DNA of 64,000 nt from Planococcus shixiaomingii. Its GTDB lineage: Bacteria; Bacillota; Bacilli; Bacillales_A; Planococcaceae. Location of the stretch: NCBI RefSeq assembly GCF_030413615.1, contig NZ_CP129236.1, positions 2,588,001 to 2,652,000 on the forward strand, read 5' to 3'. Under the pieces are notes generated by a model. That model saw only the letters and a list, made by a program, of their open reading frames with translations. It was not told where the DNA came from and did not search any database. Positions 16,828 through 45,835 of this stretch are shown here, piece by piece. A program made the translations under genes and the position numbers. The number at the start of each line of letters is the position of its first letter. The first letter of the stretch is position 1.

Positions 16828-17500
<673 letters not shown>

Positions 17501-17535
17501 CTTAAAGGTGATGATGTATTTGATTGGTTGTTTCA

Positions 17536-22874: not shown

Positions 22875-23150
22875 ATAAAAAGCCCCACATCCCTGGTAAA
22901 GGGACGAGGAGCTTAAACTCGCGGTACCACCCTTGTTGCAGCTAGAAAGCTGCCACTCGATCACCGTAACGTGGTGTAGACGAAATTGGGTACTCAATTT
23001 CTCCAATCCAGCTCGGGAGTGATTTTCTTTTAACGATTCTTCACCAGGCTCTCACTATCCCCGGCTCGCTTTGTCGAATTGGTTAAAGTACTGTCTCCGT
23101 CTTTGCTTTTTATCGATAACTTGGGTTTTCGTCTTTGAAAACCTTAATAT
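22875..23150 (-). promoter_or_regulatory. T-box riboswitch (Ile) in the ileS leader
   Basis: The leader contains the invariant T-box sequence AAGGGTGGTACCGCG (22921-22935), followed by a terminator hairpin AAGCTCC...GGGGCTT with inner TCCCT/AGGGA and a T run (22875-22916). Upstream lies a long stem I region with a GGTG-type conserved motif. The triplet ATC at 23021-23023, in the context AAAATCACTC, is the likely isoleucine specifier. Uncharged tRNA-Ile would favour the antiterminator. The specifier is inferred from position, not from a full fold. Confidence 0.9.
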
Positions 23151-44455: not shown

Positions 44456-44498
44456 CTATTGGCTTAATTTTTTTCTTTCTGTTGATTTGAGCACGATT

Positions 44499-44638
44499 GT
44501 TACTTGTGTTTTTTGGCGTTTACTTGCGTTGTTCGAAGTTTACTTGCGTTCCCCGAGGTTTACTTGCGCTTTTCGCGATTTACTTGCGATCACCGGGATT
44601 TACTTGCGTTGCTTCGCTTTTACTTGCGCTCCGCCTCT
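44499..44638. repeat. Seven-unit 20-bp tandem array: constant decamer plus variable decamer
   Basis: Seven head-to-tail units of exactly 20 bp starting at 44499, 44519, 44539, 44559, 44579, 44599 and 44619. Units 2-7 begin with identical TTTACTTGCG; unit 1 has GTTACTTGTG. The second ten bases differ in every unit (TTGTTCGAAG, TTCCCCGAGG, CTTTTCGCGA, ATCACCGGGA and so on) and are richer in G+C. The period is not a multiple of three, and no start or ribosome binding site fits, so it is not a coding repeat. It lies in the 365-bp gap between the carboxylase operon and a secreted-protein gene; the rest of that gap (44639-44713) shows nothing. Function unknown. Confidence 0.9.
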
Positions 44639-44713
44639 ATTTAAAAGATTTGCTTCGATTCGAAGTTGAACTAAATGAAGATGCCCGTTGAATTATATTT
44701 AATCCATACAAAT

Positions 44714-44750
44714 TAAAAAGGACCAAGAGTTTCACTCTTGATCCTTTTAA
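44714..44750. terminator. Terminator of the secreted-protein gene
   Basis: Stem TAAAAAGGACCAAGAG with CTCTTGATCCTTTTAA around a 5-base loop, with A and T tails on both sides; it starts 6 bp after the stop of the 44757-45671 gene. Confidence 0.8.
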
Positions 44751-44756
44751 CTTATT

Positions 44757-45671
44757 TCAGTTTTTGTATTCTGTTATAATCGTGCCCACGATAGTCCCGA
44801 GTACTTGCCCCTTGAAGGCATCAGGAACCGATTCATTGGCCGGATTTTTATAATACAACAGCTCCGTTGACTCGTTATACGTGAAGCCCATGTTAATTAG
44901 CTTACTCTTCAAAGAATCTGGCAATTGCTTGCTGCCTGTCAGTTCTTCAAAGTATTCAGTCGCATATACGGAAACATCGACGTCATCCAGGCTGGATTCG
45001 AGTATGAATAAATCCGTATCGCTTTTTAGAATCCATTGTCCTTTAGAGTTAATCGCCAATTGTGAATGCTCTAATGTGGAAATGCCGTCCAAATTCACTC
45101 CGAAGATTTGATTGATCAGCTTTCTGGCTTCCGCTCCGGTCAATGAATAGCCGTGCACCTTAATATAGCGGTCCATGACTTCATTTTTTGCCAGCTTCAT
45201 GATGTCGGCATCTTTGGTTGTGGAGGTGGCTTTTTCGTCGAAAGAAATGCGCAAGCTCTCCATTACATTGTTCGGATAAATGGCCAATTTGCTGCCATAA
45301 TCCATTTTCGAAATATAGCTCAGATCGATATAGAAAACGTCTTCTACTGCCCGACGCACTTCATTGCCTTTTATCTTGTCGCCAAATGAAGTTAAATAGT
45401 GATCCATCACTTGCACCTTTGGCATCGTTTCTATCACGCTATTCAGCTGGATAGATTTAGCAGCCGTCCCTAAACTTTCTCGCACCGCTTTCATGACTTT
45501 TTTTGAATACTTTGTATCCTGTTCATGCAGCTGCGCTTCGTAAGTTAAAAAATCCGCGGAAGCCGCCGCATCCTGTGCGAACACATTCCCCGCTCCAACA
45601 TTTAAAAAAACACCGGCCAAAAACACAAGCAAAACCGATTTTGTTGCCATCAATTTTAAATTTACATTCAC
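44757..45671 (-). CDS. Secreted protein of unknown function with internal duplication
   Basis: 304 residues from a GTG at 45671 (GAGG 8 bp upstream). A classical signal peptide (basic N-terminus with LKLMATK, hydrophobic core to about residue 28) ends in an AxA-like VFA|QD site. The mature part contains two related segments beginning VMDHYLTSFGDKIKGNEVRR and VMDRYIKVHGYSLTGAEARK, each leading to a short I-D/N-L-x-x-I-S motif. A weaker third segment may start at ATEYFEELTGS. No catalytic motif or lipobox was found and I recognise no family. Monocistronic between terminators. Confidence 0.75.
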   Translation of the reverse strand: MNVNLKLMATKSVLLVFLAGVFLNVGAGNVFAQDAAASADFLTYEAQLHEQDTKYSKKVMKAVRESLGTAAKSIQLNSVIETMPKVQVMDHYLTSFGDKIKGNEVRRAVEDVFYIDLSYISKMDYGSKLAIYPNNVMESLRISFDEKATSTTKDADIMKLAKNEVMDRYIKVHGYSLTGAEARKLINQIFGVNLDGISTLEHSQLAINSKGQWILKSDTDLFILESSLDDVDVSVYATEYFEELTGSKQLPDSLKSKLINMGFTYNESTELLYYKNPANESVPDAFKGQVLGTIVGTIITEYKN

Positions 45672-45835
45672 GAATATTTCCTCATCCCTATAATAGTTAT
45701 TTCGTACTGCACATACCATTATACTAGGACATTTATCTTACAAGATGAAAAAATAAGTATATTTTATGTAAAATACCTGCTGCACGCTTTCCACCTGTTA
45801 ACACAATTAGAAAACCGCCAAGGAATCCCCTTAAC

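Follow-up and report, generated by a model that had tools for sequence, protein, structure and literature searches.

The REP and BIME elements of enterobacteria are dispersed, intergenic sequences that lie near the 3' ends of genes, REPs being palindromic, and the repeats and spacers of CRISPR measure about 23 bp or more. STAR elements repeat a 14-bp GC-rich motif, T(G/A/T)TGTTG(G/T)GGCCC(C/A), with at least 40 bp between copies (PMC3532100); BldC forms multimers of varying number, head to tail, on directional direct repeats in helical register (PMC5859096); the Bacillus protein RemA binds AT-rich, loosely conserved direct repeats in helical register, with 7-bp protection and 3-bp intervals, as a ring that may wrap DNA (PMC8481266); and TIGR arrays alternate repeats of 8-12 nt with spacers of about 9 nt in a higher unit of two repeats (PMC12045711). 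We describe here an apparently undescribed class of arrays, with many members across Bacillus-type genomes, beginning with one that lies in the window, the whole 64-kb stretch of DNA that was analysed, where it has the following layout.

44499..44638, minus strand: constant/variable array of seven 20-bp units, reading TTTACTTGCG-N10 on the plus strand and N10-CGCAAGTAAA in the direction of the flanking genes (minus strand)
44519, 44539, 44559, 44579, 44599 and 44619 (span 44519..44628), plus strand: six exact constants TTTACTTGCG
44499..44508, plus strand: first, degenerate constant GTTACTTGTG with two mismatches
44712..44748 (ends approximate), minus strand: intrinsic terminator of the upstream gene (stem and T run on the minus strand), pointing at the array
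44757..45719, minus strand: upstream gene, 320 aa, no Pfam match, with its stop codon 129 bp before the first CGCAAGTAAA
43042..44391, minus strand: downstream gene, biotin carboxylase, 449 aa, with its start 108 bp past the last constant

Read in the direction of the genes (minus strand), the 320-aa gene is followed by its terminator, by (N10-CGCAAGTAAA)7 and by the biotin carboxylase gene; on the plus strand each constant is followed by a different decamer. TRF reports both a period of 20 (44500-44628) and a period of 40 (44518-44632). The 64-kb window contains no exact TTTACTTGCG outside the array, and with up to one mismatch the decamer matches 12 times against a shuffle mean of 6.3, a count reached by 3 of 100 shuffles; chance does not account for six exact copies that share one 20-bp register. 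The unit, a 10-bp constant and a 10-bp spacer, is too small for CRISPR. No Rfam match above gathering score was found at the array, in scans of the window and of four array loci. Elsewhere in the window Rfam places a T-box leader (RF00230, 120 bits, 22897-23112, minus strand) and a PyrR binding site (RF00515, 62 bits, 17388-17512, minus strand). The preliminary description of seven 20-bp units with a near-frozen decamer is therefore real, TTTACTTGCG being exact in six of seven and GTTACTTGTG standing in the first, but the degenerate extra unit that it placed at 44479-44498 is by eye unlike the constant, and our array finder starts at 44499.

We refer to the family of the window array as F1 (constant CGCAARTAAA, or TTTAYTTGCG on the other strand) and to the 4.02-Mb host genome as G000. 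A two-unit pattern with up to two mismatches matches the host genome 54 times, against 0 for a reversed-pattern control, and in total the genome carries ten F1 arrays with 65 units, 48 of them with a constant that is exactly CGCAAGTAAA. All 38 exact TTTAYTTGCG pairs separated by a gap of 0-30 bp stand 20 or 40 bp apart (gap of 10 bp in 32, of 30 bp in 6), and all 55 internal spacers of the ten arrays measure 10 bp despite their divergence, under a finder that allowed steps of 19-21 bp and twice these only. In the CGCAAGTAAA reading, position 9 of the spacer is A in 98% of the 55 and the other positions lean to CCTCGAGGAA. Position 6 of the constant is G in 95% of the 65 host units (CGCAAGTAAA) versus A in 87% of 616 units in other fetched arrays (CGCAAATAAA), a difference between the host and the others that is present also at the same orthologous site; such a coordinated change between genomes would be expected if sites follow one trans-acting factor. 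The host arrays sit between called genes, and the ORFs on the array strand that overlap some of them we took as spurious; open frames created by the arrays, such as one of 105 aa over the window array, are probably spurious and can mislead annotation. Ten proteins flanking the arrays were scanned with Pfam, eight having domains of unrelated function and two having none. Single decamers acting as a regulon were considered and rejected, since the isolated TTTACTTGCGNT sites outside arrays in the host genome number 8 versus 5 for the reversed control and by eye have no 20-bp neighbours. The suggestion that the element is dispersed genome-wide is thus borne out by ten host arrays, and the outcome set in advance as its refutation, a decamer found only here, did not occur; of the proposed half-frozen, half-free unit, the frozen constants hold up, while the spacers, with their A at position 9, are not wholly free. 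What that first reading did not see is the placement behind terminators with a preferred orientation, the spread in Bacillales, the 40-bp higher-order unit of long arrays elsewhere and the sister families of period 21 with constants of their own.

When CGCAARTAAA is read left to right, nine of the ten host arrays follow the end of a co-oriented gene by 41-129 bp, the exception being locus L063. We extended this count to 72 deduplicated arrays, 61 of which had both neighbours called by a simple greedy ORF method: 27 lie between tandem genes of the same direction, 22 between convergent genes, 7 between tandem genes of the opposite direction and 5 between divergent genes, with L063 and 11 other F1 arrays of the 61 not behind a co-oriented gene (binomial p of 0.0008 for tandem and 0.0015 for convergent versus divergent neighbours, with arrays of one genome not independent). 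Where a co-oriented gene ends no more than 160 bp away (43 arrays), a terminator stands between stop codon and array in 32, versus 40 of 143 gene ends that have no array and an intergenic space of 120 bp or more (Fisher p 8e-8, the searched stretches being unequal in length). When gene calls are left aside, 35 of 62 arrays have a terminator that points at them from no more than 120 bp away on their 5' side, versus 11, 11 and 15 at the other three positions.

Our preferred explanation, which we hold tentatively and at somewhat less than even confidence, is that the arrays are cis-acting, helically phased and oriented binding rows for a DNA-binding protein that multimerises head to tail. The constant would form one half of a two-turn (20-bp) step, placing all constants on the same helix face and in the same direction, and a multimerising protein of the kind of the BldC filament or the RemA ring would most likely bind the row cooperatively. 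The resulting nucleoprotein block, standing ahead of the next promoter or the convergent gene, may act as a roadblock or boundary that limits read-through of the terminator or separates supercoil domains. Selection for sites on one face of B-DNA is expected to keep the two-turn spacing exact while the spacers drift; because BldC and RemA multimers are known on direct repeats in register, we read the arrays as multimer binding rows; and from their usual position behind terminators, oriented with the ending gene, we infer the boundary or roadblock role. The preliminary proposal of a binding site at two-turn spacing fares well as to spacing, in the 38 of 38 pairs at 20 or 40 bp, and as to conservation, in constants kept while spacers change at the orthologous site described below; the binding by protein itself we infer.

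The arrays extend well beyond the host species. An exact three-unit pattern (C or T at position 5) finds 47 stretches among 84,980 species, represented by one genome each, all Bacillales by title and belonging to Planococcus, Planomicrobium, Metasolibacillus, Neobacillus, Gottfriedia, Robertmurraya, Cytobacillus and Bacillus, with the longest arrays in Bacillales reaching 27 units. Across 15 genomes, picked for having given such loci, two-unit matches number 4 to 183 per genome with controls at 0. F1 matches at up to two mismatches in 15 of 46 genomes of the genus, and the exact form of the host genome occurs in 3 of 200 genomes of the family, host included; these carrier counts are lower bounds because constants that have diverged further occur too, such as TGCAAACAAA in G159. 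Outside the host genome, 555 spacers measure 10 bp in 496 cases, 11 in 50, 9 in 5 and 29-31 in 4, under the same finder steps (19-21 bp and twice these). In long arrays of other genera, spacers at even lags have a likeness of 7.4 of 10 that declines to 6.7, and those at odd lags one of 5.0 to 5.8, which points to copying in 40-bp steps. This alternation is strong in Metasolibacillus, bin_11, Gottfriedia and the mixed remainder; in the genus and in Bacillus sp. AFS041924 it is weak; the host genome shows none overall (5.02 at lag 1, 4.97 at lag 2), with L063 alternating by eye. At several places in Gottfriedia (L082, L108, genome G221) the constants themselves alternate, as TTTATTTGCG and TTTAATTGCG, in the 40-bp unit.

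F1 is accompanied by other families of similar layout. We scanned 1.06 Mb of fetched DNA (overlaps included) de novo for 8-mers that recur at one constant step, between 8 and 60 bp, and are separated by unlike spacers, recovering 70 F1 arrays (56 at 20 bp, 2 at 21, and 12 at 40, 41 or 60) together with 6 other arrays within called ORFs (at 21 or 42 bp) and 24 intergenic ones (22 at 21 bp, 1 at 20, 1 at 52); 11 of the 22 intergenic 21-bp arrays come from loci fetched by period-21 patterns, and 12 of the other 13 arrays have a step of 20 or 21 bp. Apparent periods of 30 and 50 in the first such scan were artefacts of permitting a skipped unit. Family F2, with constant AAATACTGTCC and period 21, occurs in 29 of the 46 genus genomes, including six pairs in the host, and F3, with constant GAGTTACGACC, in 6 of the 46; AAGTGATCAAATA, TTTATTCCA, AGTTGGGCATA, AAGTTGCTCGAA and GTTCTATGA are further constants with one or two examples each, and several constant families coexist within one genome. 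The GTTCTATGA array at L102, which is among those other 13, may be coding, because a 21-bp step spans seven codons and a similar array in L219 falls within a called ORF. Tandem genes run with and against the array in 6 and 6 of 26 F2 arrays and in 3 and 5 of 11 F3 arrays, and the argument from polarity therefore holds for F1 only. Loci L174, L176, L177 and others of F2 have ends that are similar by eye (TTGG before the first ATATACTGTCC, ATTTACTGTCC near the end), as if they were discrete elements. Period-21 arrays with the constants AGTTGGGCATA and AAGTTGCTCGAA were seen at L220:13760, L221:1153 and L221:2321, in a 115-kb sample of one genome, and several array families share a leading RAGTT.

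Conservation was followed at a convergent site with pheA (prephenate dehydratase) upstream, using 30 fetched loci out of the 46 in the genus. In 7 of these 30 (G000, G201, G203, G209, G214, G159 and G205) inspection by eye shows an array directly behind the pheA terminator, and none was recognised in the other 23, G007, G211 and G130 included. The host array there has seven units, five exactly CGCAAGTAAA; that of G205 (L160) breaks off at two units, where unrelated sequence interrupts it that is perhaps a mobile element. Between G201 and G203 the constants differ at 0 of 50 bases and the spacers at 7 of 47 (Fisher p 0.005), and between either of these and G209 the constants differ at 0 of 40 and the spacers at 12 of 37 (p 5e-5 in each comparison), the spacer that follows the final constant and a unit absent from G209 being excluded from these counts; all three genomes share one unusual 11-bp spacer. 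Unchanged constants beside changed spacers therefore argue, at this one orthologous site, for selection that acts on the constants and the spacing. The relatives nearest by pheA protein (G007, G211 and G130) have no F1 match, and at the window's own site in G211 the finder detects no array, the distance from the biotin carboxylase start to the terminator motif being 130 bp versus 329 bp in the host; any function would therefore be dispensable.

This patchiness at orthologous sites is also what would be seen of a selfish or passively spreading repeat, REP-like or STAR-like. On this view a mobilising enzyme would recognise the constant, slippage by 20 or 40 bp at a time would add units, and positions behind terminators would be either targeted or simply tolerated. 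The 40-bp higher-order copies of long arrays and the coexistence of several constant families per genome speak for such an origin as well, and we consider it possible, though rather unlikely. The difference in substitution between constants and spacers at the old pheA site argues for selection after the array arose, no insertion footprint was recognised there by eye, and an orientation aligned with genes is unexpected from tolerance alone. Viral contigs contained neither F1 (three units, exact) nor F2 (two units, exact), a result that also led us to reject a phage origin.

We regard as improbable an element that acts at the level of RNA, in which read-through transcripts carrying (CGCAARUAAA N10)n are bound by an RNA-binding protein or a small RNA, or in which a pyrimidine-rich antisense strand provides a Rho-loading region. 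Orientation with transcription and position after a terminator agree with it, as do spacers in other genomes that are purine-rich in the gene's direction and leave the antisense strand pyrimidine-rich by base counts; yet stem covariation was found neither across constants nor within spacers (of seven registers the highest reached z 2.2 and the rest stayed within about 1.5), the array has no Rfam match, and the exact 20-bp spacing, which RNA roles do not require, is fixed. An RNA hairpin with the constant as loop and the spacers as stems was rejected, since neither 565 pairs of neighbouring spacers nor the host genome gave an antidiagonal signal under permutation; cells for the same position reach z 9.2 because neighbours alternate. 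Dyad symmetry within spacers, suggested by CCTCGAGG, was likewise rejected, the host genome having no excess on any axis and all arrays together giving scattered cells up to z 4.2 with no single axis.

A local, decaying minisatellite without function is very improbable and can be taken as refuted: slippage-like copies do occur in long arrays elsewhere, but the host genome has ten dispersed arrays, the spacing is fixed, the constants are unchanged in relatives, so that whole units do not decay uniformly, and the same layout recurs in several genera. A guide-RNA array of the TIGR-Tas type, with two alternating repeats and 9-nt spacers, is largely refuted and the least credible reading of all, for although spacers, and in Gottfriedia constants, alternate in the 40-bp unit of long arrays, as do by eye the spacers of L063, a Nop-domain protein was found in 0 of 18 array-bearing genomes searched (the control found it in 4 archaea among 14 control genomes), arrays are numerous and dispersed within a genome, alternate spacers repeat rather than diversify, and the host genome is without overall parity, its arrays having one constant.

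Returning to phased binding rows, we considered LytTR proteins as the trans factor. The domain is present in 42 of the 46 genus genomes, in 15 of 15 F1 carriers and 28 of 29 F2 carriers, and 14 genomes that bear it have neither family; among the four genomes that lack it, G007, G211 and G130 are without F1 and F2, G007 still having two F3 pairs, and G217 has 30 F2 pairs. The joint absence in the first three is striking, but G217 breaks the link; as the distributions do not strictly coincide, LytTR is a doubtful candidate. As a bolder and doubtful generalization, Bacillales may carry a class of two-turn constant/variable arrays, with at least seven constant families of period 20 or 21, each an oriented landing strip of its own cognate multimerising protein. 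Together these arrays would encode in the sequence the boundaries between transcription units, as a bacterial counterpart to insulator arrays. If the arrays do bind protein, a large bacterial order that is in wide use would have a so far unrecognised level at which its chromosomes or transcription boundaries are organised, and the array could be used directly as bait for its binding factor. The fixed two-turn step, the coordinated change of constant between species and the coexisting families make predictions that can be tested sharply. Selfish arrays would still call for an explanation, since as a dispersed repeat class they have constants that selection apparently protects.

Among the matches listed in the open-licence PMC literature we found no paper on these arrays, and the constants TTTACTTGCG, CGCAAGTAAA, CGCAAATAAA, TTTATTTGCG and AATACTGTCC returned, among the matches listed, only titles on unrelated subjects. 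Like REP and BIME elements, F1 arrays are dispersed and intergenic near gene 3' ends, but they consist of direct repeats without a dyad signal in the spacers. F1 arrays resemble TIGR arrays (PMC12045711) in the sizes of repeat and spacer, and some share the higher two-repeat unit; F1 differs in its dispersal, its undiversified spacers and the lack of a Nop-domain protein in the genomes searched. BldC operators have repeats about one turn apart in promoters (PMC5859096), whereas F1 constants stand two turns apart behind genes, and RemA sites, unlike F1 arrays, precede a promoter, follow one another at 10 bp and are only weakly conserved in sequence (PMC8481266). The nearest described kind are the STAR elements of staphylococci, which are likewise interspersed intergenic direct repeats with a constant motif, locus-specific spacers, several loci per genome and varying copy number, with two spacer types in one locus in some strains, and which have no known function (PMC3532100). 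The ten host arrays are interspersed, intergenic and multi-locus in the same way; in place of the 14-bp GC-rich motif and spacing of at least 40 bp of STAR, F1 has an AT-rich 10-bp motif (TTTACTTGCG, or CGCAAGTAAA), a 10-bp spacer, strict two-turn spacing, the orientation of the upstream gene and a place behind terminators, and the arrays thus differ from STAR elements in motif, spacing and placement (PMC3532100).
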